Shown: in pieces, positions 6,914 to 39,823 of the stretch
Layout of the letters: each line of letters begins with the position of its first letter
How positions within the stretch are numbered: position 1 is the first letter of the stretch
Assembly (NCBI RefSeq): GCF_900117395.1
Contig: NZ_FPEG01000001.1
Span: 186,001-250,000 of the forward strand
DNA from: Agrococcus sp. Marseille-P2731
Lineage (GTDB): Bacteria; Actinomycetota; Actinomycetes; Actinomycetales; Microbacteriaceae
Length of the DNA stretch: 64,000 nucleotides
Direction of reading: 5' to 3'
Notes under the pieces: generated by a model
The model's database searches: none
What the model saw: the letters and a program-made list of their open reading frames with translations, nothing else
What the model was told of the DNA's origin: nothing
Position numbers and translations under genes: made by a program

Positions 6914-6914
6914 C

Positions 6915-10271: not shown

Positions 10272-10293
10272 GAGGCGGACGAGGGGCGGGCGC

Positions 10294-11697: not shown

Positions 11698-11719
11698 GCG
11701 CCCGCCCCTCGTCCGCCTC

Positions 11720-11735: not shown

Positions 11736-11789
11736 ATGAGTATGGCGCAGGCGGATGCGTCGGCACGGCCCGAGCGGTGGAATGGGGCC

Positions 11790-15076: not shown

Positions 15077-15077
15077 G

Positions 15078-16286
15078 GTGGCGTCCACGCTGCTCACCGG
15101 CATCGGCGAGCTCACGACGAACGACGACCGGGGGCGGATGCACGGCGCCGCGCTGGTCATGGAGGGCGACGCGATCGCGTGGGTCGGCGAGGCGAGGGCC
15201 GCCCCGGCCGCCGACGTCTCGGTCGACGTGGGCGGGCGGGCGGTGCTGCCCGGATGGGTCGACAGCCACACGCACCTCCTCTTCGCCGGCGATCGCTCCG
15301 CCGAGTTCGAGGCGCGCATGGCGGGCGAGCCCTATGCCGCCGGCGGCATCGGGGTGACGGTCGCCGCGACGCGAGCGGCGAGCGACGAGGCGCTCGCGGC
15401 CAACCTCGATCGCCTGGCCGATGAGATGCTGCGCGGCGGCACGACCGCGTTCGAGACGAAGACGGGCTACGGGCTGACCGTCGCCGACGAGCTGCGGAGC
15501 GCCCGGCTCGCCGGCGCGCGCGCCGATTCGGTCACGTTCCTCGGCGCGCACCTCGTGCCGGAGGGCTCCGAGCCCGGTGACTACCTCGACCTGGTGACCG
15601 GCGACATGCTCGACGCGGTAGAGCCGCACGTCGACGCGGTCGACGTCTTCTGCGAGCGCGGCGCGTTCGACGAGTCGCAGTCGCGCAGGGTGCTCGAGGC
15701 GGCGCGGGCCCGCGGACTGGCGCTGCGCGTGCACGGCAACCAGCTGGGGCCCGGCCCGGGCGTGCGGCTCGCCGTCGAGCTGCGCGCGGCGAGCGTCGAT
15801 CACGTCGCGTTCCTCGACGACGACGAGGTGCGGATGCTCGCGGCGACCTGGGACGGCGCGGCGGCGGGCCGACGTGGCACGGTCGCCACCGCGCTGCCCG
15901 CGTGCGACCTCTCGACGCGCATGCCGCTCGCGCCGGCGCGGCGCCTGCTCGACGCCGGCGCTGTCGTCGCGATCGCCACCAACTGCAACCCCGGCACGAG
16001 CTACACGACGTCGATGGCGTTCTGCGTCGCGACCGCCGTGCTGCAGATGCGCCTGACGATCGAGGAGGCGGTGCGCGCCGCGACGCTGGGCGGCGCGATC
16101 GCGCTCGGCCTCGACGAGCCGAGCACCGACCGATCGGGACGTGCCCTGCTGCCGGTGGGGCGCATCCGACCCGGTGCCAGGGCCGATGTGCAGGTGCTCG
16201 ACGCGCCCTCGGTCTCGCACCTGGCCTATCGCCCCGGCGTGCCGCTCGTGCACGCGGTGTGGCGCGCAGGTGCGCGTGCGTTCTGA
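15078..16286 (+). CDS. hutI: Imidazolonepropionase
   Basis: Hydrolyses 4-imidazolone-5-propionate to N-formimino-L-glutamate. It is a 402-residue amidohydrolase with the metal-binding [12 protein letters not shown] at 62-73 and further HutI-like segments: [31 protein letters not shown] and [14 protein letters not shown]. The GTG start is one base after the hutU stop, so translation is probably coupled. The next gene (polyketide synthase) starts 81 bases later with its own promoter-like box. Confidence 0.92.
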
Positions 16287-16355
16287 GCGCTCGTCCACCT
16301 CGCGGTGCGGCGCCGCGGAGGGGCCGCGCTGTGGGAAACGCACAGTGTCCCCCAA

Positions 16356-16361
16356 TAGCCT
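16356..16361 (+). promoter_or_regulatory. Candidate -10 box of a leaderless polyketide-synthase transcript
   Basis: TAGCCT lies six bases before the ATG at 16368 and no Shine-Dalgarno sequence is present. This is the spacing of actinobacterial leaderless mRNAs that start at or next to the start codon. No convincing -35 was found. Confidence 0.4.
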
Positions 16362-16367
16362 CGCCTC

Positions 16368-17513
16368 ATGACGGTGACGATCCGAGGCCTCTCGACGCTG
16401 GTGCCTACGACGGGGCTCTCGCAGCCCGAGGTCGCGGAGGTGTTCGCCGCGCAGCCGGGGCTCACCCGGCTCGGGCAGCGACTCGTGAGCACGTCCTTCG
16501 GCGTCTCGGGCATCGAGCGCCGCTACACGGTGATCGACGAGCTGACCTTCGACGGGCCCGTGGCCTCCGAGCCCGAGTTCTTCGACCGCGAGTCGGGCCT
16601 GCTGCTCGATCCGGGCACGCGCCTGCGCAACGACCGCTACGCGCTCGAGGCGACCAAGCTCTACGTCGGCGCCGGTCGCGCGGCGCTCGATGCGGTGCCG
16701 GATGTGGCGGCCAAGGACGTCACGCACGTCATCACCGTCTCGTGCACCGGCTTCTACGCGCCCGGTCCCGACTTCGTGGTCGCGCGCGACCTGGGCCTGC
16801 GCCCCGGCGTGCAGCGCTACCACCTGGGCTTCATGGGCTGCTACGCCTCGCTGCCTGCGCTGCGCCTGGCGAGCCAGCTCTGCGAAGCCGATCCCGCGGC
16901 GGTGGTGCTGGTCATCAGCGTCGAGCTGTGCACGCTGCACCTGCGCACGTCGAACGACCCCGACACGATCGTCGCGACCTCGCTCTTCGGCGACGGCGCC
17001 GGCGCGGCCCTGGTCACCGCGCGGCCGCCGCAGGACGGGGAGCGCGCGCTGCAGCTCGACGGGTTCGCGACCCGCACGACGCCCCGGGGCGAGGGCGACA
17101 TGGCGTGGAAGATCGGCGACCACGGCTTCGAGATGGTGCTCTCCAACGCCGTGCCGTCGCTCATCGGCGAGCACGTCACCGGTGCGATCGCGCCGCTGCT
17201 CGAGGCAGAGCCGCAGCTGAGCGCCGCGCTCGCCGAGGGTCGCGCGGGCGAGCCGATCGAGCACTGGGCGATCCACCCGGGCGGCCGGAGCATCCTCGAC
17301 AAGGTGGAGGCGACGCTCGGCCTCACCGAGGCGCAGCTCGTGCCCGCCCGCGAGACGCTCCGCGACTACGGCAACATGTCGAGCGCCACCGTGCTGTTCG
17401 TGCTGCAGCGCATCCTGAGCGACGAGTCCGCGCAGGACGGCGACCGGGTGGCGGCGATGGCCTTCGGGCCGGGGCTCACCGTCGAGTCGGCGCTGCTGAC
17501 CGTCCGGGCCTGA
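16368..17513 (+). CDS. Type III polyketide synthase (alkylresorcinol/alkylpyrone synthase type)
   Basis: Condenses an acyl-CoA starter with malonyl-CoA units on a single active-site cysteine. The 381-residue protein has the full Cys158 (FMGCYAS), His303 (AIHPGGRSILD) and Asn336 (YGNMSSATV) triad and the FGDGAGAALV segment of the chalcone-synthase fold. It is followed by a methyltransferase and an FAD oxidoreductase, the same three-gene order as srsABC of Streptomyces griseus, which makes methylated phenolic lipids and quinones. A similar lipid product is a reasonable inference, but chain length and starter cannot be read from sequence. Confidence 0.9.
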   Translation: MTVTIRGLSTLVPTTGLSQPEVAEVFAAQPGLTRLGQRLVSTSFGVSGIERRYTVIDELTFDGPVASEPEFFDRESGLLLDPGTRLRNDRYALEATKLYVGAGRAALDAVPDVAAKDVTHVITVSCTGFYAPGPDFVVARDLGLRPGVQRYHLGFMGCYASLPALRLASQLCEADPAAVVLVISVELCTLHLRTSNDPDTIVATSLFGDGAGAALVTARPPQDGERALQLDGFATRTTPRGEGDMAWKIGDHGFEMVLSNAVPSLIGEHVTGAIAPLLEAEPQLSAALAEGRAGEPIEHWAIHPGGRSILDKVEATLGLTEAQLVPARETLRDYGNMSSATVLFVLQRILSDESAQDGDRVAAMAFGPGLTVESALLTVRA

Positions 17514-17520
17514 GCTGGCG

Positions 17521-18252
17521 ATGCTCTCGGGCATGCGGATGCTGTCGAGCCTGCGGGAGCGCGACCCGGGCGCGCACGAGCTGATGGACGACGCGGACTG
17601 CGACCCCGTGACGCTCGCCCGCACCTTCGACCGCTTCGCGATCGTGAACGCGGTCGTCTCCGACCAGCGCTCGCTGTACCGTCGCTGGATCCGGCCGCGG
17701 CTGAGGGGCGGCGAGGCCCTCCGCCTGCTCGACGTCGGCACCGGGGGCGGCGACCTCCCGCGTCGGATGCTGCGCTGGGCCGAGCGAGACGGCGGCGGGC
17801 TGACGGCGGTCGGCATCGATCCCGATGAGCGTGCGATCGCCGCTGCTCGCGCGCAGCCGCCGCTCGCGGGGCTCGAGCTGCGCCGGGTCTCGACCCGCGA
17901 GCTCGTCGCGACCGGCGAGCGCTTCGACCTCGTCGTCTCGAACCACGTGCTGCATCACCTGACGGCAGCAGAGCTCGGCAGCATCCTGGTCGACTCCGAG
18001 CGGCTGACGGCGCCCGGTGGCGCGGTCGTGCACGGCGACATCGCGCGCTCGCCGCTCGCGTACGCGGCCTTCGCCGCGGCGACGCTGCCGCTGCAGCCCA
18101 CGCTGCTGCGCGACACGCTCATCCGCGTCGACGGGCTCGCGTCCATCCGGCGCAGCCACACGGCGGCGGAGCTCGCGCCGGCCATGCCGCCTGGCTGGAC
18201 GGCGCGCTCGCGACCGCCGGCGCGCCTCGAGCTCAGCTGGCGCGCGCCGTGA
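17521..18252 (+). CDS. SAM-dependent methyltransferase of the polyketide operon
   Basis: 243-residue class I methyltransferase. Motif I is [12 protein letters not shown] at about 69-80, an acidic motif II follows at GIDPDE, and the SNHVLHHL segment fits the post-motif of small-molecule methyltransferases. It starts seven bases after the synthase stop and overlaps the flavoprotein start by 4 bases (GTGA). By analogy with SrsB it may methylate the polyketide ring; substrate and position are inferred from context only. Confidence 0.82.
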
Positions 18253-19427
18253 CGGGCCGGCGCGCGAGCGCGCCGGCCTCGCGGCACGATGTCGCGATCG
18301 TCGGTGCCGGTGCGGTCGGCCTGCTGCTGGCCTGCCTGCTCGCGCAGCGCCAGCTCGACGTCGTCGTGCTCGAGCGCCGCACCGAGCCCGCATCGGTCTC
18401 GCGCGCGTTCGGCATCCACCCGCCCGGCATGCTGGCGCTCGACGCCGCCGGCGTCGGCGATGCGGTGCGGGCGGAGGCGCTCGTGATCCGATCGGGTGCG
18501 GCGCTCAGCGGCGGCCGCCGGCTGGGGCGCCTCGACTTCGGCGACCGCGCCATCCACGCGCTCCCGCAGGAGCGCACGGAGGCGCTGCTGCGGGAGCGGT
18601 TGGCGGCGCTCGCGCCCGCGGCGCTGCGCGCGGGCGCCGAGGTCACCGCGCTGCAGCAGCACCCCCGGGGCGTCGAGCTGGCACTGGCGTCGGGCGGACG
18701 CGTCGATGCGCGCTGGGCGGTCGGCGCCGATGGCGTGCACAGCCGGGTCCGCGACCTGCTGCACATCGAGCGCACCGAGCGGCGCGGGGGCGCTGGCTAT
18801 GCGATGGCCGATGTCGACGCGCCCGAAGCCGCTGGGGACGCGGATCCAACCGGGGCCTCCGCGCTGCTGCACCTGGAGCCCGGCGGCGTCATCGAGTCGT
18901 TGCCGCTGCCGGGGGGTCGGCGACGGTGGGTGGCGCGGCTCGCATCGCCCGAGGAAGAGGTGTCGGCGGGACGGCTCGAGCAGATCCTCGGCGAGCGGCT
19001 GTCGATGCCGGGTGGCGGGCGGGCGGTCGAGCGGCTGCCGGAGGGCACGGTGCCCAGCGCCTTCCGCGCTCGGCAGCGCATGGCGAAGCGGTTCGAGAGC
19101 GGCCGGGTGGCGCTCGCGGGCGACGCCGCGCACGAGGTGAGCCCGATCGGGGGCCAGGGCATGAGCCTCGGCTGGCTGGACGCCCTCGCGCTCGACCGAG
19201 CGATCGCCGACGCGTGGGTCGACGACGTCCCAGCGCCCTTCGGCCGCTATGCGAGGGAGCGTCGCCGCGCCGCCGCCCTCGCGATGCGTCGCGCCGCGTG
19301 GAACATGGCGATGGGCGCACCGGCGGGCCCTGTGCTGCACGCCGCTCGGCTGACGCTCGCGCGCACCCTCGTGCTGCCGCCGAGCAGGGCAGCGCTCGTC
19401 GCAGCGTTCACGATGCGCGGGCTCTGA
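18249..19427 (+). CDS. FAD-dependent oxidoreductase (PHBH-type hydroxylase)
   Basis: 392 residues, GTG start overlapping the methyltransferase stop. The N-terminus carries the FAD-binding GAGAVG at 19-24 with an acidic end of the second strand (VVVLER). Near residue 290 is the [19 protein letters not shown] motif that contacts the FAD ribityl chain in aromatic hydroxylases. By analogy with SrsC it could oxidise a resorcinol ring to a quinone. It ends 14 bases from the convergent hutG. Confidence 0.83.
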
Positions 19428-19441
19428 GCGCAGCGGCCGCG

Positions 19442-20395
19442 TCAGACCGCCCGCAGCTTGGGGAAGCGGTCGTCGCGATCGGCGAGCGCTGCGAGCGCCT
19501 CGAGCACGCCGAGGGCCGTCAGCCGCACGGTGCGACCGTCGGCCGCGTCGGCCGCGGCGTCGACCTCGGTGAAGTCGATGGAGGTGACCTCGTCGTAGGC
19601 GACGATGGCGCGGATCAGCGCCCGCAGCTGCCACGCGCTGATGCCGCCGGGCACCGAGGCGGGGCAGCCGGGCGCCACCGAGCGGTCGCAGACGTCGACG
19701 TCGACGTCGAGGTGCACGGGCCCGCCGGCCGCCCGCGCGACCTGGACGGCCTCGGCAGCGACCTCGTGCAGGCCACGCTGCTCGAGGTCGTCGCGCAGGA
19801 ACACGCTGATCCCCGCCTGCCGCGCCCGCTCGGCATAGGCGCGGGAGTTCGCGAAGTCCTGGATCCCGATCTGCGCCACTCGCGAGCCGTCCAGGCCGGC
19901 GTCGAGCAGCCGCTGCACGGGCGAGCCGTTCGAGCGGCCGTCGCGCAGGTCGTGGTGCGCATCCAGCGTGATCAGTCCGGCGGTCTCGATCGACGCTCCC
20001 CAGCTGCCGAGCGCCGCGGGCACCGTGGCCGCGTTGTCGCCGCCGAGCACGATCACGAACCGCGCGCGAGCGGCGGCGCGGGCGACGAGCGCAGTGGCGC
20101 CCTCCTCGTCGCCGTCGGGGTCGGATGCGTCCCCGGCGTCGGCGACGCGCAGTCCGCCGACCGGCGCGGCCGTGGCGTAGGCGTGCGGCGAGGAGCGGCG
20201 CAGCGCCTCCCGCACCGCAGCGGGTGTCGTGTGTGCGCTCGTCGGGCTGAGCGAGGTCTCGTGGGTGCCGAGCCCGACCAGCACCGCGTCGAGGCGACCA
20301 GGCGCATCCGCCAGGCTCGGCCAGTCACCGCTGCGCGGCCAGGACGGGTCATGCGGGAGGCCCCCGGAGGGGACGGAGGACGACGAGGGAGCCAT
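19442..20395 (-). CDS. hutG: Arginase-family hydrolase, probable formimidoylglutamase
   Basis: Would hydrolyse N-formimino-L-glutamate to glutamate and formamide, completing histidine breakdown. The 317-residue protein shows DAHHDLRDG (145-153) and the aspartate metal cluster DVDVCD (about 232-237). The first metal motif reads GGDN (Asn121) where arginases and agmatinases have GGDH, so one expected Mn ligand is replaced. It is separated from hutHUI by the three-gene polyketide operon and is on the opposite strand. The identity rests on hut context; agmatinase or another ureohydrolase is possible. Confidence 0.78.
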
Positions 20396-20401
20396 GCCGC
20401 G

Positions 20402-20407
20402 ACGCTA
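20402..20407 (-). promoter_or_regulatory. Candidate -10 box of a leaderless hutG transcript
   Basis: TAGCGT on the minus strand ends six bases before the hutG start codon, and there is no ribosome-binding site between them. Confidence 0.4.
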
Positions 20408-20432
20408 GCAAGCGCGGCGCGACACGCCCGGG

Positions 20433-20462
20433 TTGCACGGGTGTCGACATCCGTGAGAGACT
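20433..20462 (+). promoter_or_regulatory. Candidate S10-operon promoter
   Basis: TTGCAC (20433-20438), an 18-base spacer, then GAGACT (20457-20462). The -35 and spacing are good; the -10 departs from TANNNT at its first base. The same TTGCAC with an 18-base spacer occurs before infA. Confidence 0.4.
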
Positions 20463-20699
20463 CTTCAGGTTGCAAACGCGACGATTCCACGTCGCTCACT
20501 GCTCTGGCTGTGCACAGGTTCGAGATCGATCCTGGGCCGCGGGCAGCTCCAACAGAACTTCACCGAAGCCGAGCGCGGTATCGCCGTGCGCGACGTCGGT
20601 GCGCGCCCCATGCGGGCATTGACAGAAGAACAGCGGTGCACTCGAGAGTGCGTTGCGAGCAGCCTAGAACGGCTGCGTCGACAGGAAGAGAGTCAGCCA

Positions 20700-21007
20700 T
20701 GGCGGGACAGAAGATCCGCATCCGACTGAAGTCGTACGACCACGAGGTCATCGACTCGTCGGCGCGCAAGATCGTCGACACCGTGACCCGTGCGGGCGCG
20801 ACGGTGGTGGGCCCTGTGCCGCTGCCGACCGAGAAGAACGTGGTCGTGGTGATCCGTTCACCTCACAAGTACAAGGACAGCCGCGAGCACTTCGAGAAGC
20901 GCACGCACAAGCGACTCATCGACATCATCGACCCGACGCCGAAGGCAGTCGACTCGCTCATGCGCCTCGACCTGCCCGCTGACGTCAACATCGAGATCAA
21001 GCTCTAA
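20700..21007 (+). CDS. rpsJ: Ribosomal protein S10
   Basis: 30S head protein, also the transcription antitermination factor NusE. It is 102 residues, starting [19 protein letters not shown] and ending in DVNIEIKL as is usual for S10. First gene of the S10 operon, eight bases before rplC. An identical copy in the left arm is considered artefactual. Confidence 0.97.
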
Positions 21008-21015
21008 GGAACGCC

Positions 21016-21666
21016 ATGTCGAAGATCACGACGACTCGCGGCCTGCTCGGCAAGAAGCTCGGGATGACCCAGGTGTGGGATGAGCAGAACAAGCTCGTCC
21101 CCGTCACGGTGCTCGAGATCACGCCGAACGTGGTCACGCAGATCCGCACGCCCGAGAAGGACGGCTACGCAGCCATCCAGATCGCCGCAGGCCAGATCGA
21201 CCCGCGCAAGGTCAACAAGCCGGCAGCCGGTCACTTCGAGGCCGCTGGCGTCACGCCGCGCCGCCACCTCACCGAGGTCCGCACCGACAACGCCGATGCC
21301 TACGAGCTCGGCCAGGAGCTGGCGGTCGACCTGTTCGCCGCCGGCCAGAAGGTCGACGTCGTCGGCACTTCGAAGGGCAAGGGCTTCGCAGGTGTCATGA
21401 AGCGCCACAACTTCGCTGGTGTCTCGGCATCGCACGGTGCGCACCGCAACCACCGCAAGCCCGGCTCGATCGGTGCCTCGTCCACGCCCAGCCGCGTCTT
21501 CCGCGGCATGCGCATGGCCGGCCGCATGGGCACCGACCGCGTGTCGGCGCTGAACCTCACGATCCACTCGATCGACGTCGAGCAGGGTCTCATGCTCGTC
21601 AAGGGCGCCGTCCCCGGTGCTCGCGGTCGTCTCGTGTACGTCCGCAACGCTGTGAAGGGAGCCTGA
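21016..21666 (+). CDS. rplC: Ribosomal protein L3
   Basis: 50S assembly-initiating protein, 216 residues. It has the N-terminal [13 protein letters not shown] and the [16 protein letters not shown] loop that reaches toward the peptidyl-transferase centre. It is 2 bases from rplD. Confidence 0.97.
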
Positions 21667-21668
21667 GC

Positions 21669-22400
21669 ATGACTGCACAGGTCGCCATCGTCGACGCGAA
21701 GGGCAAGCAGGCAGGCTCGGTCGAGCTGCCCGCCAGCATCTTCGACGTCCAGACGAACGTTCCGCTGATCCACCAGGTGGTCGTCGCGCAGCTCGCAGCT
21801 GCACGCCAGGGCACGCACTCGACCAAGGGTCGTGGCGAGGTCTCCGGCGCCGGCCGCAAGCCCTTCAAGCAGAAGGGCACGGGCCGCGCCCGTCAGGGCT
21901 CGATCCGCGCACCCCAGATGACCGGCGGTGGCATCGTCCACGGCCCGACGCCGCGTGACTACTCGCAGCGCACCCCCAAGAAGATGATCGCCGCAGCGCT
22001 GCTCGGCTCGCTCTCGGACCGCGCTCGCGGTGGCCGCCTGCACGTCATCGAGGCGTTCCCGGCCGATGCTCCCAGCACTCGCGTCGCGGTCGACACCTTC
22101 GCGGTGCTCGGCGTGGCCAAGAACGTGCTGCTCGTGCTCGACCGCTCCGAGGAGACCGCGCTGCTGTCGGTGCGCAACCTCCCCGAGGTCCACGTGCTGC
22201 CCTGGGACCAGCTCAACGCCTACGACGTGCTCGTGAGCGACGACATCGTGTTCTCGAAGCCGGCCTACGAGGCGTTCGTCGCCGCGAAGACGGGTTCGAC
22301 GGTCGAGGTCGTCTCCGAGGAGCCCAAGGCTGAGAAGCCGGCGAAGGCTGAGAAGCCCGCCAAGGCACCGAAGGCCGAGAAGGCAGAGAAGGACAACTGA
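21669..22400 (+). CDS. rplD: Ribosomal protein L4 with Lys/Ala/Glu-rich C-terminal tail
   Basis: 243-residue L4 with the conserved loop [20 protein letters not shown]. The last about 25 residues are a low-complexity tail of repeated KAEKPA units ending KAEKDN, beyond the usual L4 end. In bacteria where it has been studied, L4 regulates its own operon; nothing here tests that. The inverted repeat covers its first 322 bases (through 21990). The stop overlaps the rplW start. Confidence 0.97.
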
Positions 22401-31474: not shown

Positions 31475-32056
31475 ATGCCGAACCTCCTCATCGTGGGCCC
31501 GCCCGGGGCTGGCAAGGGCACGCAGGCCGCTCGGATCGCCGACACGCTCGGGATCCCCGCCGTGTCGACCGGCGACATCTTCCGCCAGAACATCAAGGAG
31601 CAGACCGAGCTCGGTCAGCGCGTCTCCGCCATGCTCGATGCGGGGGAGTACGTGCCCGACTCGCTGACGAACGAGCTGATCGACGACCGCCTCGCGCAGA
31701 CCGACGCTGAGGGTGGCTACCTGCTCGACGGCTACCCCCGGACTGCCGGTCAGGTGGAGTTCCTCGACGGCGTCAACCTGCGTCGCGGTGAGCAGCTCGA
31801 TGGCGTCGTGCGCCTGGTCGCAGACACCGACGAGGTCGTGCGCCGCCTGTTGGCGCGAGCACAGGAGCAGGGGCGCAGCGATGACAGCGAAGAGGTCATC
31901 CGCCACCGCCTCGAGGTCTACGAGCGCGAGACGGCGCCCCTCATCGCCATCTTCGGCGAGCGCGGCCTCGTCGTCGAGGTCGACGGCATCGGTGCCGTCG
32001 ACGAGGTGACCGAGCGCATCCTCGCCGGCCTCGCCGAGCGAGGCATCTCCGCCTGA
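31475..32056 (+). CDS. adk: Adenylate kinase (short LID form)
   Basis: 193 residues; P-loop [10 protein letters not shown] at 7-16, LLDGYPRT near residue 86. The LID is the short, zinc-free type usual in actinobacteria. It starts on the base after the secY stop and its stop overlaps the map ATG. Confidence 0.96.
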
Positions 32057-32886
32057 TGCTCCGACGCGGGCTCTACAAGTCGCGCCGCGAGCTCGCCTCG
32101 ATGCGCGAGCCCGGGCGCATCACCGCACTGGCGCTCGCAGCCGTCGAGCGCGAGATCGCTGCGGGCGTCACGCCGCTCGCGCTGGACGCGCTCGCGGAGC
32201 GCGTGATCCGCGAGCACGGCGCGGTGCCGAACTTCCAGCTCGAACCCGGCTACCAGCACACGCTCTGCGTCAACATCAACGATGTGGTGGTGCACGGCAT
32301 CCCGGATGCGCGCCCCATCGAGCCGGGCGATCTCGTCACCGTCGACTGCGGCGCCACGATCGGCGGCTTCCACGGCGACGCTGCCATCACCGTGCTCGTG
32401 CCCGGGGGCGACCCAGCGGTCGCGCATGCGCGCGCCCACCTGAGCGAGGTCACCGAGGGGGCGCTCTGGGACGGGATCGCCGCCCTGGCCTCTGCCAAGC
32501 AGCTCGGCGCCGTCGGCGCCGCGGTCGAGGATCACGTCGAGGCGAACAGCGACTTCGGCATCAGCGACGACTACATCGGCCACGGCATCGGGCGGGCGAT
32601 GCACGAGGAGCCGCCGGTCTTCAACTACCGCACGCGGGTCGTGGGTCCCGCGGTCAAGCCTGGCCTGTGCGTCGCGGTCGAACCCATCATCCACGCCGGC
32701 TCCACGGGATCGGCGACGGATGCGGACGGCTGGACCGTGCGGACCGCCGACGGCAGCGACGCCTGCCAGTGGGAGCACTCCGTCGCGGTCCACAGCGACG
32801 GCATCTGGGTGCTCACGGCGCTCGACGGCGGCCTGGCGGGCCTCGCGCCCTACGGGATCGTGCCGGTGCCGATCCCCGAGCGCTGA
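32056..32886 (+). CDS. map: Type I methionine aminopeptidase
   Basis: Removes N-terminal methionine. 276 residues; the metal ligands are visible as D (VTVDCGA), D (FHGDAAI), H (GHGIGRAMHEEP), E (VAVEPIIH) and E (WEHSVAV). In related genomes infA usually follows; here an 11-kb accessory block intervenes. It converges on the ImmA-like gene with a 4-base gap. Confidence 0.95.
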   Translation: MLRRGLYKSRRELASMREPGRITALALAAVEREIAAGVTPLALDALAERVIREHGAVPNFQLEPGYQHTLCVNINDVVVHGIPDARPIEPGDLVTVDCGATIGGFHGDAAITVLVPGGDPAVAHARAHLSEVTEGALWDGIAALASAKQLGAVGAAVEDHVEANSDFGISDDYIGHGIGRAMHEEPPVFNYRTRVVGPAVKPGLCVAVEPIIHAGSTGSATDADGWTVRTADGSDACQWEHSVAVHSDGIWVLTALDGGLAGLAPYGIVPVPIPER

Positions 32887-32890: not shown

Positions 32891-33313
32891 CTACGCCGCG
32901 GTACGACCTCCCAGCACGAGATCGCGATAGGCGCGGAGCACGTCGGCCGTCACGCCGAGCTCCTCCGCGAGCTCCTGATCATCGTGCGCCCACGTGCACG
33001 CTGCAGCCAGCTGCTGCGGGTCGATGAGGACGCGCGCCGCGAAGCGCTCCGCGGCCCGCTCGCCTGCCGCGGAGGTGCCAGCATGCATGAACACGGCGTG
33101 GCCGAGCTCGTGCGCCAGCACCGAGCGCTGCTCGATGGGAGTCAGGCCGCGGGCGAGCAGGATGCGTCGGCGCGGGTGGTCGTAGGCGCCGAGCCAGTCG
33201 GCCGGCAGGGGAGCGCAGGTGACATCGACCTGGAGCTGACGGCACAGCCGCAGCAGCTCAGTCAGCGTGGGGCTGCTCCCGTCGAGGGACGCCACGCCGA
33301 GCCGCAAGTCCAC
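32891..33313 (-). CDS. ImmA/IrrE-type zinc metallopeptidase
   Basis: 140 residues with the gluzincin motif HELGH at 68-72 and a downstream ERAAERFAARVLI segment (Glu85/Glu89) that supplies the third ligand in this family. Such proteases cleave or relieve a partner XRE repressor (ImmR-ImmA, DdrO-IrrE). The partner here is directly upstream. The GTG start at 33313 lies 56 bases inside the XRE gene but has an excellent AGGAGG six bases upstream, which supports this long overlap. It is divergent from the bacteriocin operon, so it may control it. Confidence 0.85.
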   Translation of the reverse strand: MDLRLGVASLDGSSPTLTELLRLCRQLQVDVTCAPLPADWLGAYDHPRRRILLARGLTPIEQRSVLAHELGHAVFMHAGTSAAGERAAERFAARVLIDPQQLAAACTWAHDDQELAEELGVTADVLRAYRDLVLGGRTAA

Positions 33314-33731
33314 GGACGTCCTCCTCGCTGATGCCTTCCTGGTGGATGGCGGTCACCGTAGCCCCACCCGGTGACACCGCGCCGGCGCGCACGTGCGCTG
33401 CGAGCGTCGCGATCGCCGCATCCGCTGCGAGGTGCCTGCGATCGCCCGGCACGTGCGAGAGCAGCTCGGCCATGACCGCCGTCCACAGCTCGATCTCGGG
33501 ATCGAGCTGCTGCGCGTCGGTCGCGAGCCCGAGCGCGGAGAAGAGGCGGCGCAGGACGTCCTCCTGCGGAGCACCCGCCCCGCGCTCGATGTTGCTGACC
33601 GTCGTGCGATCGACGCCGGCGAGCTCCGAGAGCGCCTTCTGGCTGAGGCCGCGTCGAAGCCGCGCGGGCCGGACGAGGGCTGCGTAGTGGGCGCGCTCGG
33701 CTGCGCTCGCGCCCCGTAGGTGGATGGACAT
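33258..33731 (-). CDS. XRE-family transcriptional regulator paired with ImmA-like protease
   Basis: 157 residues. The N-terminal helix-turn-helix is at about 23-70 (LRRGLSQKALSELAGVDRTTVSNIERGAGAPQEDVL). The C-terminal half is helical and of unknown role, perhaps the substrate of the overlapping protease gene. The ATG at 33731 has GAGG seven bases upstream. It faces the small HTH/bacteriocin operon across a 155-base gap with repeats. Confidence 0.85.
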   Translation of the reverse strand: MSIHLRGASAAERAHYAALVRPARLRRGLSQKALSELAGVDRTTVSNIERGAGAPQEDVLRRLFSALGLATDAQQLDPEIELWTAVMAELLSHVPGDRRHLAADAAIATLAAHVRAGAVSPGGATVTAIHQEGISEEDVRGLAARRGVPRREQPHAD

Positions 33732-33792
33732 CCGTCAGCCTCGTCTCTCTCGTGCCTAGGTTATCCGCACGCTGATGGGTGTCCGCGGGCAC

Positions 33793-33812
33793 TCTTCGAC
33801 AGATCTTCGACA
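33793..33812. repeat. Direct repeat TCTTCGACA x2, one helical turn apart
   Basis: TCTTCGACA occurs at 33793-33801 and 33804-33812, an 11-base period, in the divergent gap between the XRE gene and the bacteriocin operon. Same-face spacing suggests a cooperative regulator site; the binding protein is unknown. Confidence 0.55.
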
Positions 33813-33862
33813 TAACGCCGTGATATCTGGAGCCAACTGTGGAGAACTCCTGGCGCGTGCGT

Positions 33863-33883
33863 GGAAAACGTGGCACTGTTTCC
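33863..33883. promoter_or_regulatory. Imperfect 21-bp palindrome before the bacteriocin operon
   Basis: The arms GGAAAACGTG and CACTGTTTCC (8 of 10 pairs) surround a central G and end three bases before the ATG of the small HTH gene. This is a likely operator for one of the two adjacent XRE-type proteins. Confidence 0.5.
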
Positions 33884-33886
33884 GAC

Positions 33887-34171
33887 ATGACGGTCGAATC
33901 GCGCATCGGTGCCTCGCTCGCCGCGCTTCGGCGCAGCGCCGGAGTCAGCGCAGCCGAGCTCGCCCAGCGAGCCGCGCTCCCGGAATCGATCGTGCACAGC
34001 ATCGAGCAGGGGGCGGTCGTCCCGTCGCCCGAGCTCGTCGCCCGACTGACAGGCATCCTCGCGACCAGCCTGCGGGATGCAGATGAGGCCGCCGTCGCAC
34101 GCGACGCGCACCGACCTCGCTCCGAGCGGAGCGAGCGCCCGACGCTCGGGCGAGACACAGAAGGAGCATGA
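33887..34171 (+). CDS. Small XRE-type HTH protein, first gene of the bacteriocin operon
   Basis: 94 residues. An HTH of the Cro/XRE fold covers about residues 7-60 (IGASLAALRRSAGVSAAELAQRAALPESIVHSIEQGAVVPSPELV); the rest is a charged tail. The ATG at 33887 follows a 21-bp imperfect palindrome. No good ribosome site is seen, so the message may be leaderless or poorly translated. Its stop overlaps the bacteriocin precursor start, and the end of the gene encodes two RNA hairpins. It probably regulates this operon. Confidence 0.75.
   Translation: MTVESRIGASLAALRRSAGVSAAELAQRAALPESIVHSIEQGAVVPSPELVARLTGILATSLRDADEAAVARDAHRPRSERSERPTLGRDTEGA
34116..34152 (+). other. Two tandem hairpins just before the bacteriocin precursor
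   Basis: Stem 1: 34116-34123 with 34128-34135 (8 bp, loop gagc). Stem 2 follows at once: 34136-34142 with 34146-34152 (7 bp, loop cgc). The precursor ribosome site begins nine bases later (34161). No U-tract follows. They lie inside the HTH gene's end and could protect a processed 5' end, boosting precursor mRNA, or attenuate. Confidence 0.6.
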
Positions 34172-34449
34172 TGGAGATCAAGACCAAGAAGGGGCGCGCC
34201 GCGGTCTGGAGCGCCTCCGCAGCCGTCAGCATCGTCGGCATCGCGATCGCGGGATTCTCGCTCGCGTGGGTGGCTGGATCGCTCGGGATCTCCGGCGCGG
34301 CAGCGTCGCAGATCGTCAGGGCGATCGAGATCGGCGGGGCGGCGCTCGCCGTCGTCATCGCCATCTTCGGTGGCGGCGTCATCAGCGCAATCGCCGGGGT
34401 GGTGGCCGCATACCTGAGGAAGAAGCTGCGCGCAGTGGCGATCGCCTGA
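34171..34449 (+). CDS. Probable circular bacteriocin precursor (AS-48/circularin type)
   Basis: 92 residues from the ATG at 34171 (AAGGAG at 34161-34166; an ATG at 34168 would add one Met). A basic N-terminus (MEIKTKKGRA) and a hydrophobic segment form a leader of about 33 residues, close to the 35 of AS-48. The likely core is residues 34-92, about 59 residues: VAGSLGISGAAASQIV near 34-49, GG at 55-56, GGG at 67-69 and a basic C-terminal helix AYLRKKLRAVAIA. From memory it lines up with AS-48 in the leading G-I-xx-A-A pattern, the E-x-GG turn, and an AYLKK...RAVIA end. The cleavage point and head-to-tail ring closure are inferred. The downstream SpoIIM/DUF95 and ABC genes support the call. 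A plain small membrane protein is the alternative. Confidence 0.8.
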   Translation: MEIKTKKGRAAVWSASAAVSIVGIAIAGFSLAWVAGSLGISGAAASQIVRAIEIGGAALAVVIAIFGGGVISAIAGVVAAYLRKKLRAVAIA

Positions 34450-34450
34450 C

Positions 34451-35041
34451 ATGGACGCGGTCGACGGCGGGGAGAAGGCGCGCACGATGCGCGGATCGAT
34501 CGCGCTGTCGGCCGCGCTCGTGACCGGGCTGCTCGCCGGCGTCGCCTGCGTCGCATGGCTGGCATCGGGAGCGCTGACGTCGCTGAACGTCGCGGCAGTC
34601 GCGGCTGGCGACGTCGACATCGGCCCGCTGGTCGAAGACCCATCGTTCCTGGGCATCGCCGCGCGCAACCTGTCGGTCGCGGGGCTGCTGACCGCAGGCA
34701 TCCCGCTGCTGGGCATACCGACGCTGCTCTCGCTGCCGGTCAGCGCGATGATCGTCGGTTTCACCGGGGCGTCGGTCGTCGCGTCGCTGGGCCTCCCGCT
34801 GACCCTCGATCGCGTGAGTGCGTACATCGTGTTCGAGCTCGCCGGCATCGTGATGGCAGCGACGGCAGGCGTGCTGCCGACGGTGCACGCATGCCGCCAG
34901 GTGCTGGGCCGGCCTCGGGCGCGGTTCGCCCACGGGTACACCGTCGCCATCCCGCCTGCGCTCGGCGTCGGGCTGATCGGCGCAGCGCTCATCCTGCTCG
35001 GCGCCGCGATCGAGACCGCGGCAATCTCCGCACTCACCTGA
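34451..35041 (+). CDS. SpoIIM/DUF95-family membrane protein of the bacteriocin cluster
   Basis: 196 residues with about five membrane segments. Motifs of the SpoIIM family are visible: ARNLSVAGLLTAGI near 71-84 and FELAGIVMAATAGVLP at 128-143. DUF95 proteins are a hallmark of circular bacteriocin clusters, where they are needed for maturation, secretion or immunity. It starts one base after the precursor stop, so the two are co-translated. Confidence 0.75.
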   Translation: MDAVDGGEKARTMRGSIALSAALVTGLLAGVACVAWLASGALTSLNVAAVAAGDVDIGPLVEDPSFLGIAARNLSVAGLLTAGIPLLGIPTLLSLPVSAMIVGFTGASVVASLGLPLTLDRVSAYIVFELAGIVMAATAGVLPTVHACRQVLGRPRARFAHGYTVAIPPALGVGLIGAALILLGAAIETAAISALT

Positions 35042-35102
35042 TGACGGCCCAGCTGGCGCGCGGCTGCCGTGCAGCTCCGATCCGACCGAGACCGACCCGT
35101 AC

Positions 35103-35124
35103 AGGGCACGCCCTCGCGTGCCCT
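35103..35124 (+). other. Intercistronic hairpin in the bacteriocin operon
   Basis: 8-bp stem (35103-35110 with 35117-35124) with a six-base loop in the only sizeable gap (97 bases) of the operon, just before the AGGAGG of the next gene. It may separate precursor plus DUF95 expression from the transport genes. Confidence 0.45.
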
Positions 35125-35138
35125 TCCTGAGGAGGACC

Positions 35139-35681
35139 ATGATCACCGACCACCTGTCCCAAGCGCAGCCCATCGCGCGCAGGCGAACGACGTCCGCCGG
35201 CGCCTGGGCGATCATCCTCGGCATCGCGGCAGCGCTGCTGCTGCTGCGGTTGCCGGCGGCCATCGCGATGGCGGAGACCCTGCTGAGCGAGCAGGTGACC
35301 GAGCTCGACGATCCGGCCATGGCTGGCATGGCGGTCTCCATGGGCGCTGTCGGAGCCCTCGCGCTGCAGCTGTTCGTCCTGGTCCTGCTGGCGGTGCTCG
35401 CGAGCGTGCTCGAGCGGCTGCTCGGCCCAGCCGCCATCGGTGGAAGGCTTCGAGTGGGTGTCGCCGGGATCGTCTACGGTGCCCTCGTGCTCGGTCAGCA
35501 GGCGTGGGCCCTGGCGTCCGGCGTCGTGGCCGTGGAACGATCCTGGCCGCTCTGGATCATCGCGCTCGTGGTCGCCGCGGCGGCCCCTGCTGCCTTCAGC
35601 GCTGCGCGCTCCTCGTGGCGCGCGTACCTGCGAGCCGCGGTTCCCGGGATCATCATCGGGGGGCTGCTGTGCCTCGGGTAG
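35139..35681 (+). CDS. Membrane protein of the bacteriocin cluster, function unknown
   Basis: 180 residues starting at the ATG preceded by GAGGAGG (35129-35135). Predicted membrane segments lie at about 22-46, 66-92, 105-130, 137-157 and 165-180; the N-terminal 20 residues are basic and cytosolic. No family was recognised. By position it is a candidate maturation or immunity protein. It overlaps the next gene by 13 bases. Confidence 0.7.
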   Translation: MITDHLSQAQPIARRRTTSAGAWAIILGIAAALLLLRLPAAIAMAETLLSEQVTELDDPAMAGMAVSMGAVGALALQLFVLVLLAVLASVLERLLGPAAIGGRLRVGVAGIVYGALVLGQQAWALASGVVAVERSWPLWIIALVVAAAAPAAFSAARSSWRAYLRAAVPGIIIGGLLCLG

Positions 35682-36067
35682 CCAAGCTGTTCGGCCTCTT
35701 CCCGTACACCGCGACCGGCGTCAGGCTGCTGGCGGCGGGCTCCCTCGTCCTGAGCGCGGCCGTGCTCGCCGGCATCGCGGTGTCCGACCTGCCCGCTGGT
35801 CGCGTCTGGTTCGCGACCGCGCTGTCGATCGCGCTGGGCGCGCTCGCGCTGGCCGCCGCGCTGCCGGCGATCGTCAGCGGCCGGCTGCGCCTGATCGGCA
35901 CCGGCATCCCCACGATGGCGCTCAGCCTCGTGGCATCCGCCGCGATCGGTCTGGGGCTCGTGGAGTGGGCGACGGCCTGCGCGGGCTTCCTCTTCCTCGG
36001 TTCGATCCTCACGGTCGTCTACCACGGCATGGGCTGGGAGCGCAGACCCGCTCGCTCGAGCCGATGA
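35669..36067 (+). CDS. Small four-helix membrane protein of the bacteriocin cluster
   Basis: 132 residues from a GTG with a G-rich site five bases upstream (35658-35663). Membrane segments lie at about 19-39, 47-69, 77-97 and 101-120, with a basic tail. Size and topology are in the range of small immunity or accessory proteins of circular bacteriocin clusters, but no family is recognisable. Confidence 0.65.
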   Translation: MPRVAKLFGLFPYTATGVRLLAAGSLVLSAAVLAGIAVSDLPAGRVWFATALSIALGALALAAALPAIVSGRLRLIGTGIPTMALSLVASAAIGLGLVEWATACAGFLFLGSILTVVYHGMGWERRPARSSR

Positions 36068-37164
36068 CGGCGCCCGGCCTCATGCGGGTCCCATGGCGAC
36101 AGGGCGAGGCCGCGCGCACGGTCGAGGTCATCCTCGTGAGCACGATGCCCGCATGGTTGCCTCCGGCCCTGCTGTGGCAGCTCCGCGCGCCGATCGTCGT
36201 CGCTGCCGTCACGGGTGGCGGCGGAGTCGCTCTCCTGGTCGCCGTCGCGCTCGACACCGCGACCCGCGCGTGGGGTGCAGGAGCGGTGGCAGCAGCAGTG
36301 GGCGCGGCGGTCGCGGTGCTGCCGAGCCTGTGCCAGCTGCTCGGCGGTCCGTCAGGGTTGGCCGCTGCGCTGCTGAGGGAGCGCGCGCTGCTGCACGCGC
36401 TCGGCCTCGAGCGCGGGATAGAGCGACGCGCGTCGTTGCTCACAGCGGCACCCGGTGCGCTCCTGGCCGCCCTGGTCGGGCTGCTCGCATCCCTCGTGCT
36501 GGGCGTGCGCGGTGCGTCGTCGGCGTCGCTGACCGTCCTCTCCGCGACCCTCGTCGGCGCACTGGCCGCCGTCGCCCTGGCTCGAGCACTCGCGCGAACC
36601 GCATGGGCGCGACGGCCGCTCGTCCGGGCGGCGACCAAGCTGGCGGCGGTGTGTGCGCTGTGCGGCGCTGGGGTCGCGGTGCAGGAGTCGCTGGCCGCTC
36701 CGGCTGTGCCTGCCCAAGCGGTCCACCTCGCGGTCTTCGCGATCGCCGTCTGGTGCAGCGGCGATGTCCTGCTCCTCGATGGGAGGCCCGGCCTCAGGCT
36801 CGGCCGGGCGCTCTGCTCGGTGGGAGCACGGCCGTGGGTGCTGAGCGCGAGCGCCGTCGGTGGGCTGCTGCTGATCGCGGTGCCGGTCGGGGCAGCGGTC
36901 GGTGCGGTGCTGGGCGGCGTGCTCGACGAGGAACTCGCGTGGCCGTCGGGTGCGATCGTCAGCTGCGCGCTGCTCGCCGCTGGCATCGCGGTGATCCTCG
37001 AACCCGTCCCGACGGACGCGCTCGCGCGGCTGCTCGTCTACGGTGCGTGCGCGACGCCCGCGCTGGTGGTCGCGACGCAGCAGGTGCCAGACGCGCTCCA
37101 GCTGCTGGTGCTCGCGGTCCTGGTGGGCGCCGTGCACGTCGTGCTCGTCCGGCGGCTGCGGTGA
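36064..37164 (+). CDS. Large membrane protein, possible ABC permease partner
   Basis: 366 residues, roughly eight to ten hydrophobic segments rich in Ala/Leu/Val. No motif beyond membrane topology was recognised. It overlaps the previous stop (ATGA) and the next ATPase start (GTGA). Because it directly precedes an ABC ATPase lacking an obvious permease of its own, it is likely that ATPase's membrane partner. Confidence 0.65.
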   Translation: MTAPGLMRVPWRQGEAARTVEVILVSTMPAWLPPALLWQLRAPIVVAAVTGGGGVALLVAVALDTATRAWGAGAVAAAVGAAVAVLPSLCQLLGGPSGLAAALLRERALLHALGLERGIERRASLLTAAPGALLAALVGLLASLVLGVRGASSASLTVLSATLVGALAAVALARALARTAWARRPLVRAATKLAAVCALCGAGVAVQESLAAPAVPAQAVHLAVFAIAVWCSGDVLLLDGRPGLRLGRALCSVGARPWVLSASAVGGLLLIAVPVGAAVGAVLGGVLDEELAWPSGAIVSCALLAAGIAVILEPVPTDALARLLVYGACATPALVVATQQVPDALQLLVLAVLVGAVHVVLVRRLR

Positions 37165-37799
37165 GCGAGCTCGAGGTGCAGGGCGCGGGAACCCTGCCAG
37201 GGCGAGCGCGCGCGGTCGCCTTGCCCGACCTGCGCGTCGACGCGCCGGGGCTCGTGCTCGTCGAAGGCCTGAACGGTTCGGGGAAGTCCACGCTCATCGA
37301 TGTGCTCGCGGGTTCCCTCCTGCCGCGCGCCGGCTCGGTCCGCGTCGGCGGCTGGCCCGCGGGGAGCGACGAGGCGCGTCGCGCTCGGGCCGTCACTCGC
37401 TGCGCCGTCTCGTTCCTCGCTCCCGTGACGCTTCGCGTGCACGCCGGTCTCTTCGCGCGAGCAGCAGGGGTCTCAGCGGGCGCGGCGATCCAGGCCCTCG
37501 ACCTGGAGGGTCTGCGGCCGCTGCTGGCTGAGCCTGCGGGGCGGATGTCGACCGGAGAGGCCCGGCGGGCGTGGAACGCGCTCACCACGTTGGGCGACCG
37601 GCGCGTGCTGCTGCTGGACGAGCCGTTCCTCGGCCTCGACTCCGCCGCGGCTGCACGGCTCGCGGCGAGGATCGAGGCATGGTCGGCCACCCGCGTCGTG
37701 CTGCTCGTCGATCATGCGCAGCGCTCGTGGCGTGCGCGGCCTATCCGAGTGGCCATGCCGGAGCCAGCCTCGTCGCCGAGCGCAGGAGGGCACGCGTGA
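37161..37799 (+). CDS. ABC transporter ATP-binding protein with altered signature
   Basis: 212 residues. Walker A GLNGSGKST at 36-44, Walker B VLLLDEPFLGLD at 149-160 and the H-loop histidine at 185 are intact. The signature reads MSTGEA (129-134) in place of LSGGQ. Co-translated with its neighbours by GTGA overlaps. Probably powers bacteriocin export or self-protection with the 36064 membrane protein. Confidence 0.82.
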   Translation: MSELEVQGAGTLPGRARAVALPDLRVDAPGLVLVEGLNGSGKSTLIDVLAGSLLPRAGSVRVGGWPAGSDEARRARAVTRCAVSFLAPVTLRVHAGLFARAAGVSAGAAIQALDLEGLRPLLAEPAGRMSTGEARRAWNALTTLGDRRVLLLDEPFLGLDSAAAARLAARIEAWSATRVVLLVDHAQRSWRARPIRVAMPEPASSPSAGGHA

Positions 37800-38686
37800 G
37801 ACCGGCGATAGAGGTGGAGGAGCTCAGCATGCGCTACGACCATCGCGTCGTCCTCGACGAGGTGTCGTTCCACGCACCCTGGGGCGCGGTGACGGGCTTC
37901 ATCGGTGTGAACGGCTCTGGCAAGACCACGACGATCCGATGCATGCTCGGCCTCGAGCGCGGTGGAGGACGCACGCGGATGGCGGGCGTCCCGTACGCAG
38001 AGCTCGACGAGCCTCTGCGCACCGTCGGGTTCTGCCCCGACTCGCTCGGGGCGGCCCCGTGGGTGACCGCGCAGCAGCACATCCGCACGCTCGCGCTCCG
38101 CGCGGGTGCTGACGCGACCGCAGCAGCGAGCGTGCTCCAGAGCGTCGGCCTCACCGCGGTGTCCCAGCCGGTGCGCGCCTACTCGCTCGGCATGCGACGA
38201 AGGCTCGCGATCGCCGGAGCACTCGTGGCGAGCCCCGGCATCCTGGTGCTCGACGAGCCCTTCGACGGGCTCGATCCCGAGGGCAGGCGATGGTTGGCCG
38301 AGCTGCTGCGCGCGCATGCCGACGACGGCGGCGCGGTGCTGCTGTCTGCCCATGCACTCGACGAGATCGAGCCCCTGCTCGATCGTGTGGTGTGCCTGCA
38401 CGAGGGCAGGGTGCGGTATGCCGGGGCGGCCGAGCCGTTCCTGCGAGCGGGCGCCGCGGAGGTCACGATCGTCCGCTCGCTCGATCAAGCCCGGCTCGCG
38501 GATGCGCTGCGCGCCGCTGGCGCGACGGTCCGGTCGCGCGCATCAGGAGCCGTCGCCGTCCGGGCGCTGACACCCGAGCAGATCGCGAGGGTGGCGTCCG
38601 ACGCCGCAGTGCTGGTCACCGAGCTCACTCCCAGGCGCACGACGCTGAGCGCGGCGTTCGCGACGGCGATCGAGGCGGCGCCGTGA
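37796..38686 (+). CDS. ABC transporter ATP-binding protein
   Basis: 296 residues. Walker A GVNGSGKTT at 37-45, signature YSLGMRRRL at 129-137, Walker B ILVLDEPFDGLDP at 149-161 and H-loop LLSAHALDE follow the pattern of bacitracin/ABC-2-type exporters. The C-terminal 90 residues form an extra domain as in BcrA-like ATPases. Pairs with the permease directly downstream. Confidence 0.87.
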   Translation: MRPAIEVEELSMRYDHRVVLDEVSFHAPWGAVTGFIGVNGSGKTTTIRCMLGLERGGGRTRMAGVPYAELDEPLRTVGFCPDSLGAAPWVTAQQHIRTLALRAGADATAAASVLQSVGLTAVSQPVRAYSLGMRRRLAIAGALVASPGILVLDEPFDGLDPEGRRWLAELLRAHADDGGAVLLSAHALDEIEPLLDRVVCLHEGRVRYAGAAEPFLRAGAAEVTIVRSLDQARLADALRAAGATVRSRASGAVAVRALTPEQIARVASDAAVLVTELTPRRTTLSAAFATAIEAAP

Positions 38687-39489
38687 GCGCGGGCTCGCAC
38701 GACGGCCGGGCTGGGAGGCCGAGGTGGCGCAGGATGCGCGCGAGCATGACGGCCGAGCTGCGCGGCCTGCTGCGGGGGCGACGGCAGGGCTGGGTCCTGG
38801 TGTTCGCCGTCGTCGGCTCGCTGGCAGGGGGCATCACGAGCGGCGGCATCGCCACGCAGCTCTCCGGCGTCGAACCGCTCGAGCTCTCGACCATGAGCAT
38901 CTCGAGGGGCGCAGCCACACCGATCGCGGTGGCGCTGCTCGCCGCGGTCGCGATCGCCGGCCCGTATCGCGATGGCGGGTGGCTGCAGCCGGTGCTGAGC
39001 GAGCCGCGCGCGCTGCCGCGAGCGCTGGCGGGCGGGGTGCCGATGCTCGGGGCGAGCGTCCTCCTCGGCCTGCTCGCGGCCACCGTCGCCGCGGTGAGCG
39101 CGGGAGCGCTCGCAGGCTTCGACCCAGGCTCGTTCGCGCTGGCGGCGAGCGCGCACGTCGTCGTGACGGCGATCTGGGGCCTGTGGATGCTGTGCCTCGC
39201 GCACGCCACGCGCTCACCCCTGTTGACGATCGCTGTCGGCGTGGGCATGCCCGTCGTTGTCGAGCCGGCGCTCGCCGGGCTCCTGGCGCAGCTGCAGCTC
39301 GATCCAGCGCGCTGGGCGCTGCCGGGGCAGGCGCTGCGAGCGGTCGGCGAGGCGGGTGCCGGAGGCGGGGCGCTGCTGCTGCCGATCTCCGCGCAGGCCC
39401 TGGCGATCGCCGTCGCGACCATCGCCATCTGCACGCTCGCGGCGGCGCTCGCGGCGGGGCTCCGGATGCGCGCTGCTCAGCCGCGCTGA
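38683..39489 (+). CDS. ABC-2-like permease, last gene of the bacteriocin operon
   Basis: 268 residues with a basic, cytosolic N-terminus (about 35 residues) and six hydrophobic segments. The LRGLLRGRRQGWVLVFAVVGS start resembles ABC-2 permeases that work with BcrA-type ATPases. The GTG overlaps the ATPase stop. Likely an exporter or immunity pump for the circular peptide. Confidence 0.7.
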   Translation: MSAGSHDGRAGRPRWRRMRASMTAELRGLLRGRRQGWVLVFAVVGSLAGGITSGGIATQLSGVEPLELSTMSISRGAATPIAVALLAAVAIAGPYRDGGWLQPVLSEPRALPRALAGGVPMLGASVLLGLLAATVAAVSAGALAGFDPGSFALAASAHVVVTAIWGLWMLCLAHATRSPLLTIAVGVGMPVVVEPALAGLLAQLQLDPARWALPGQALRAVGEAGAGGGALLLPISAQALAIAVATIAICTLAAALAAGLRMRAAQPR

Positions 39490-39568: not shown

Positions 39569-39823
39569 ATGGCTGAGCGCACCGTCACCGTCGAGTCTGC
39601 CAACGGCCTGCACGCACGCCCTGCTTCGCTGTTCGCGCAGGCGGCGGCGAAGGCCGGCAGCCCCGTCACGATCACGAAGGGCGAGAAGCAGGTCAACGCG
39701 GCCAGCATCCTCTCGGTCATCTCGCTGGGCGTCAGCAAGGGCGACACGGTCACGATCGACTCCGACGACGAGTCGGCGCTCGACGAGCTCGAGCAGCTGC
39801 TCGCGACCGACCACGACGCCTGA
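39569..39823 (+). CDS. ptsH: Phosphocarrier protein HPr
   Basis: 84 residues, passes phosphate from enzyme I to sugar-specific IIA proteins. The active-site His15 is in GLHARPAS and Ser46 in AASILSVISLG matches the regulatory serine of Gram-positive HPr. Strong AGGAG ribosome site. It heads the mannitol PTS operon. Confidence 0.95.
   Translation: MAERTVTVESANGLHARPASLFAQAAAKAGSPVTITKGEKQVNAASILSVISLGVSKGDTVTIDSDDESALDELEQLLATDHDA

Follow-up and report, generated by a model that had tools for sequence, protein, structure and literature searches.

Does an operon of an actinomycete encode a head-to-tail circular bacteriocin of the AS-48/uberolysin kind, and if so, between which residues is the ring closed? 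The question is raised by a locus of Agrococcus sp. Marseille-P2731, located at positions 33887–39489 of the 64,000-nucleotide stretch of contig NZ_FPEG01000001.1 analysed here (positions 186,001 to 250,000; referred to as the window), in which a gene of 92 codons encodes a putative precursor peptide. Circular bacteriocins (class IId) are found mainly in Firmicutes (PMC8659200; except for PMC5347231, statements from the cited papers refer to the parts of their text that were available). Comparisons at the sequence level make it probable, at roughly 85%, that the window operon encodes such a bacteriocin, and this probability is shared by two readings of the cut between leader and core. In the tentatively preferred reading, the precursor would be cleaved before Trp33 and the ring closed between Ala92 and Trp33 (60 residues), one residue off the register of AS-48; in the other, which follows the standard register, the leader would end with Trp33, which would serve as a leader recognition residue, and the ring would join Ala92 to Val34 (59 residues).

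34171–34449, plus strand: precursor peptide of 92 residues, leader 1–32 or 1–33, core 33/34–92 (PF09221; profile matches to AS-48 and NKR-5-3B)
34267–34446, plus strand: proposed core that begins with Trp33, 60 residues, average ring mass 5741.82 Da
from 34270, plus strand: core of the standard register, 59 residues, ring mass 5555.61 Da

The 92-codon gene is present as predicted from the sequence; an ATG at 34168 is a possible alternative start, but the start at 34171 is favoured by its spacing from an AAGGAG motif and by relatives of 92 residues. The precursor matches the Pfam family of circular uberolysin-like bacteriocins (PF09221) with 26.0 bits, which exceeds the gathering score of 23.6; the stricter NCBIfam model for circularin A/uberolysin (TIGR03651) yields 18.5 bits, below its cut-off of 30.7. 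A single-sequence search of the PDB (E ≤10) returned one match, the circular bacteriocin NKR-5-3B (E 0.023), and did not find AS-48. With a profile of the eight precursors detected in the genus, the only matches at E ≤10 were NKR-5-3B (4.4e-4) and two AS-48 sequences (0.002 and 0.012). Profiles restricted to the core matched also pyruvate carboxylase chains (E 0.56–1.6) and, with the core rotated, a peptide of the circularin/uberolysin family (E 0.3), but across full and core profiles all PDB matches at E <0.1 are circular bacteriocins. The core is basic (isoelectric point [pI] 11.0, charge about +3.7), and the core motifs named in the original prediction are present and recur with substitutions in all eight aligned precursors of the genus. 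The assignment of the adjoining gene to DUF95 also held (SpoIIM, PF01944, 29.3 bits, cut-off 26.9). Together with PF09221 and the ranking of the PDB matches, it supports the earlier reading as an AS-48-type circular bacteriocin.

The precursor has nine counterparts in syntenic clusters, seven in other Agrococcus genomes and two in a genus of another family (genomes G683 and G757). All ten match TIGR03651 at E ≤0.1, and five exceed the cut-off of PF09221. Several observations weigh against the family assignment. Four of the ten precursors do not match PF09221 at E ≤0.1, and a fifth remains below its cut-off; none of the full-length precursors reaches the cut-off of TIGR03651, and three (L016, L017, and L018) score higher with another family, again below cut-off. 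When four bare cores were scored with TIGR03651, L015 alone reached the cut-off (30.8 vs. 30.7). The AlphaFold model of the core is poor (mean predicted local distance difference test score 63.9), and a Foldseek search with this low-confidence model found no PDB fold at E ≤10. The models of precursor and core are all-helical with three helices, likewise at low confidence; a saposin-like fold has four to five. Peptide, ring, and activity are predictions from the genes.

The position of the cut is suggested by the distribution of aromatic residues. The first residues of AS-48 and NKR-5-3B both align with Val34 of the window precursor, and the corresponding residue is Val, Leu, or Ile in all ten precursors. 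The residue directly before it is Trp in nine precursors and Tyr in one, whereas the last residue is Ala (7/10) or Arg (3/10) and never the usual Trp or Tyr. This combination of a terminal Ala or Arg with an aromatic residue at position –1, seen in every precursor, suggests that cleavage takes place one residue earlier, which would give a ring of 60 residues. Among subgroup I bacteriocins, the commonest residues at the first, second, penultimate, and last positions are Leu, Ala, Ala, and Trp (73, 47, 80, and 73%); in circularin A, maturation requires an aromatic last residue, and production was blocked when Tyr69 was exchanged for Ala, Val, Ile, Lys, Arg, or Asp (PMC10028692). The original prediction had divided the precursor into a leader of about 33 and a core of about 59 residues. 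Alignment to AS-48 and NKR-5-3B gives the same division, although Trp33 may belong to the core.

Further indications come from comparisons in which the aromatic residue was moved to the C-terminus of the core. The rotated core profile aligns with AS-48 through its last residue, Trp70, with 27.4 bits (bare core, 21.8) and with NKR-5-3B from residue 1 to 64 with 23.2 bits (bare core, 20.6); this gain stems partly from the added aromatic column and indicates equivalence of the rings, not the site of the cut. In pairwise comparisons of eight precursors (L017 and L018 were left out as near copies of L016; shifts of –2 to 6), the summed scores of the bare cores were 328 against AS-48 and 446 against NKR-5-3B. 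They rose to 471 and 588 when the aromatic residue was appended (a gain of about 142) and to 369–377 and 485–493 when the appended residue was taken from 18 other leader positions in turn (gains of about 40–50). Against NKR-5-3B, a shift of 1 was best (588; next best, 564). From the rotated-profile and pairwise-shift comparisons it follows that the order of residues in the ring would be that of AS-48 if the cut precedes Trp33. The window peptide stands in the core alignment (A3) with Met as its first residue, because its GTG codon was taken as a start. The mean pairwise identity of leader and core (65% vs. 69%) is not decisive.

The standard register falls short of even odds, though it is still a serious contender. 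In its favour are the alignment of Val34 with residue 1 of both reference peptides and a set of observations that speak against an earlier cut. The W70A variant of AS-48 still circularises, together with linear and oxidised forms; aromatic residues occur at position –2 in 55.56% of nine short leaders, and leucocyclicin Q has the leader MF, with an aromatic residue at –1 (PMC10028692). The full-precursor profile scores 23.8 bits against NKR-5-3B, no worse than the rotated profile; any added residue raises the pairwise score somewhat; against AS-48, a shift of 5 (481) exceeds a shift of 1 (471); and moving the aromatic residue raised the TIGR03651 score in two of four cases and lowered it in the other two. 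The standard register would, however, leave the ring without the usual aromatic residue at the junction in all ten precursors, and the six replacements of Tyr69 in circularin A argue against it as well. On balance, the cut before Trp33 is given slightly better odds, which would imply, at somewhat under even odds, a native actinomycete branch that is cut one residue earlier than its counterparts in Firmicutes and in which the junction aromatic is the first core residue instead of the last.

It is improbable that the peptide stays linear and is exported as a linear or leaderless-type saposin-like bacteriocin. Leaderless bacteriocins have the same fold, and those predicted for Actinomycetota include one from an Agrococcus strain (PMC11580447); no enzyme has been firmly assigned to the cyclisation of circular bacteriocins (PMC6131525). 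By contrast, all ten precursors have a leader of 30–45 residues (one less with the shifted cut), the window precursor matches PF09221, and the SpoIIM gene, which is class-defining for circular but not for leaderless bacteriocins (PMC11580447), adjoins the precursor gene in all ten clusters. A similarly poor explanation is that the gene product is no bacteriocin and belongs, as a small membrane protein, to an ABC-type module for envelope stress or signalling: hydrophobic peptides can match hidden Markov models weakly, and pyruvate carboxylase chains appear with the core profiles, but the PDB matches at E <0.1 are all circular bacteriocins, and each of the ten clusters combines the precursor with SpoIIM and ABC genes.

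The closest described systems share some features with the window peptide and differ from it in others. Its core can be aligned with that of AS-48 of Enterococcus from the FGI motif to the basic C-terminus (RAVIAW in AS-48, RAVAIA in the window), and the AS-48 cluster likewise contains a SpoIIM protein, along with two transporters (PMC5695211). Unlike the window core of 60 or 59 residues, the AS-48 core has 70; it ends in AVIAW, whereas the window core ends in AVAIA and carries its aromatic residue before residue 1, and the window host is an actinomycete. NKR-5-3B, the sole match of the single-sequence search, can be aligned with the rotated profile over its full length but ends in AAAW and has a leader of 23 residues (PMC10028692). 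Subgroup I is marked by a basic core with an aromatic last residue; the window core is basic, and in all ten precursors the last residue is Ala or Arg and the aromatic lies at –1. Precursors of another class of Actinomycetota (genomes G772, G846, and G868) match PF09221 with 44–46 bits and belong to the same phylum, but their NKR-5-3B-like cores end in AAAW.

Two side observations concern these relatives. The terminal Trp of the three PF09221 precursors from this other class (loci L088, L089, and L090) was counted for the shifted cut. An NKR-5-3B-like gene (L075:7926-8189) is present on 111 plasmid records, 110 of them from Enterococcus, and adjoins an IS30 transposase gene in the one that was inspected.

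The genes surrounding the precursor are arranged as follows; membrane segments were counted with a simple hydropathy scan, and m4 and the permease-like protein are called membrane proteins by hydropathy only.

32056–32886: map, left flank of the island
32891–33313, minus strand: M78 (ImmA/IrrE-like) metallopeptidase with HELGH motif (PF06114, 50.1 bits, cut-off 22); matched in 8/8 islands
33258–33731, minus strand: XRE-type helix-turn-helix (HTH) regulator, divergent from the operon (PF01381, 47.4 bits, cut-off 23); in 8/8 islands
33732–33886: divergent control region; repeats of the TTCGACA type may be operators (alignment of eight intergenic regions)
33887–34171, plus strand: small HTH_31 protein, encoded at the start of the operon (PF13560, 42.6 bits, cut-off 27); in 8/8 islands
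34451–35041, plus strand: SpoIIM/DUF95 membrane protein (PF01944); in 8/8 islands
35139–35681, plus strand: membrane protein m2, 180 residues, about 4 membrane segments (hydropathy); in 8/8 islands
35669–36067, plus strand: small basic membrane protein m3, 132 residues, pI 11.5, grand average of hydropathy 1.07; match in 7/8 islands
36064–37164, plus strand: membrane protein m4, 366 residues, about 10 membrane segments; in 8/8 islands
37161–37799, plus strand: ABC ATPase 1 with Walker A and B motifs (PF00005, 49.3 bits, cut-off 25)
37796–38686, plus strand: ABC ATPase 2 with Walker A and B motifs (PF00005, 71.2 bits)
38683–39489, plus strand: ABC permease-like membrane protein, about 6 membrane segments; in 8/8 islands
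39569–39823: ptsH (PF00381, 87.3 bits), followed by mtlA; right flank

The run of SpoIIM/DUF95, three membrane proteins, two ABC ATPases, and an ABC permease is thus as originally described, with nearly all genes overlapping: from the small HTH gene onward, neighbouring genes share 1, 4, or 13 bases or have a single base between them, and the only larger gap (97 bases) separates SpoIIM from m2. On the minus strand, the M78 peptidase gene overlaps the XRE gene. The placement of the operon between map and infA was mistaken, because its neighbours are map and ptsH, and infA lies about 4.5 kb further on. No Pfam match was found for m2 at E ≤1, for m3 no Pfam or NCBIfam family above cut-off, and for the permease-like protein no Pfam match above cut-off. 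The best NCBIfam match of ATPase 2 is the lantibiotic protection ATPase TIGR03740 (124.6 bits, below the cut-off of 309.75), and a PADLOC scan matched only the two ATPases, with ATPase-type models. As judged by eye, TTCGACA and GTCGAA repeats in the control region are common to most islands; a GTCGAAAACxTGGCAT-like stretch stands directly before the small HTH gene.

The cluster is patchily distributed. The precursor was detected in 8 of the 24 genomes of the genus (E ≤0.01; identity 56–100%), and a further match, in genome G017 (E 0.0023), lies inside a frame of 3,498 residues. All eight genomes have the same gene set at the same location, except that m3 was not matched in G007. The map gene was found in 21 genomes; in all 13 of these that do not contain the precursor, map is directly followed by ptsH, with 61–177 bases between them, stop codon included (the three genomes without a map match are left out of this tally). 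Because map runs straight into ptsH in these genomes, the XRE/M78 pair counts as part of what is gained or lost and forms a single island with the operon. Pairwise distances of the island genes correlate with those of map and mtlA (rank correlation 0.51–0.89; 28 pairs, 21 for m3); the pairs are not independent and the correlation is descriptive, but the divergence is easier to reconcile with an island that has long resided in the genus, with losses or exchange among its members, than with a recent arrival.

Outside Agrococcus, convincing relatives are rare. An order-wide search of 396 genomes with the genus profile gave seven matches at E ≤0.01, of which only G683 (2e-11) was convincing beyond the genus. 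Its cluster comprises precursor, SpoIIM, m2, m3, m4, both ATPases, and the permease in the same order, and that of G757 is also syntenic; in both, SpoIIM exceeds the cut-off and adjoins the precursor. Five of the 81 genomes of G683's genus match, G683 and G757 convincingly and G707 and G708 weakly (E 0.005–0.007), and a wider search of the family (221 genomes) again returned only G683 and G757. The genus is presumably Cellulomonas, as judged from a neighbouring cellulase-like reading frame. A phylum-wide profile search (396 genomes) gave five matches, of which only that of the window was convincing. Among the 396 phylum genomes, PF09221 exceeds its cut-off in four, namely that of the window and three from a single other family; it does so in 2 of 299 genomes of the window's family, where G010 holds the gene and yet scores below. 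A profile scan of contigs found two loci, in A. pavilionensis and A. lahaulensis, whose match positions are the same as those in G011 and G010.

The weak profile matches in G613, G654, G334, G585, G825, G1054, G863, and G1024 were rejected, as the flanks or short loci do not contain the syntenic set; a generic ABC ATPase match occurs near those of G654, G334, G863, and G1054 and a weak m3 match near those of G613, G654, and G1054. The stretch from G863 lies at a contig end.

The genome search also returned a second, identical copy of the cluster (C3:220171). Positions 1–10995 of the window are the exact reverse complement of 10996–21990; 4999 of 4999 bases match between 1–4999 and 388992–393990 of contig C3, and 4001 of 4001 between about 153991–157991 and 236000–240000. 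The compared pairs fit a perfect inverted repeat with arms of about 197 kb at the start of the contig, which is most likely an assembly fold-back. Two real copies were rejected for this reason, and the cluster is counted once. The fold-back could explain the contamination estimate of 7.69%, and genes located there are doubled.

How the operon might function can be outlined by analogy. The homology of precursor and SpoIIM, the coupling of the genes, and the conservation of the island as a unit belong to the observed level, and every biochemical step is inferred. Described clusters hold a precursor, SpoIIM, an ABC transporter, and an immunity gene (PMC6131525), and the roles of SpoIIM, m2, m4, the ATPases, and m3 are probably those of their counterparts there. 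The 92-residue precursor would be cut near residue 33 and its ends joined in the membrane by SpoIIM with m2/m3/m4 and ATPase 1. Export would involve SpoIIM, m2, m4, and ATPase 1, with m4 probably the partner of the ATPase. When the DUF95 gene for leucocyclicin Q was lost, the completed ring stayed in the cell (PMC6131525), which is why SpoIIM may serve export rather than closure. The exported ring would insert into the membranes of related Gram-positive bacteria, while protection of the producer would fall to ATPase 2 together with the permease-like protein and, probably, to m3, which is small, cationic, and hydrophobic and therefore a candidate for a dedicated immunity protein. The divergent XRE/M78 pair would control expression together with the small HTH protein. 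An M78 protease gene beside an XRE gene presumably resembles the ImmA/ImmR pairs of mobile elements; because of this likeness, the pair is read as a switch, and the peptidase probably has a regulatory role instead of acting as a leader peptidase.

Predicted circular bacteriocin precursors number 6,925 in Firmicutes, two in Actinobacteria, and one in Thermotogae (PMC8534725), in line with the original prediction that the family is best known from Firmicutes; the actinobacterial example named in that survey is an amylocyclicin-like cluster of Mycobacterium abscessus. The Actinobacteria terms looked for are absent from the main text of PMC7132975 and PMC5695211. Crude extracts of Agrococcus isolates act on Gram-positive bacteria, in a report whose main text does not contain the word "circular" (PMC12222571), and the available part of PMC2907837 holds nothing on an Agrococcus bacteriocin. 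The genome announcement of A. baldri Marseille-P2731, a strain from permafrost dated to about 10 million years, mentions nine bacteriocin-encoding genes but does not name them (PMC5347231). Within the sources available, the literature search found no report of a circular bacteriocin in Agrococcus or Cellulomonas, nor of the window cluster.

Surveys that start from standard models would undercount the actinomycete members of the family, because only five of the ten precursors pass the Pfam and none the NCBIfam cut-off. The locus adds a conserved chromosomal island, present or absent as a unit, in a genus with cultured strains. The cutting and closure of circular bacteriocins are unsolved, with no responsible enzyme pinned down (PMC6131525), and a divergent lineage with the aromatic residue across the cut offers a natural experiment on recognition by the machinery. 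If the shifted cut is true, residues in the mature ring would follow the order of AS-48-type rings (Ala-Trp-hydrophobic), with ligation on the other side of the aromatic residue, and evolution would have kept the position of this residue in the ring, not its C-terminal status.

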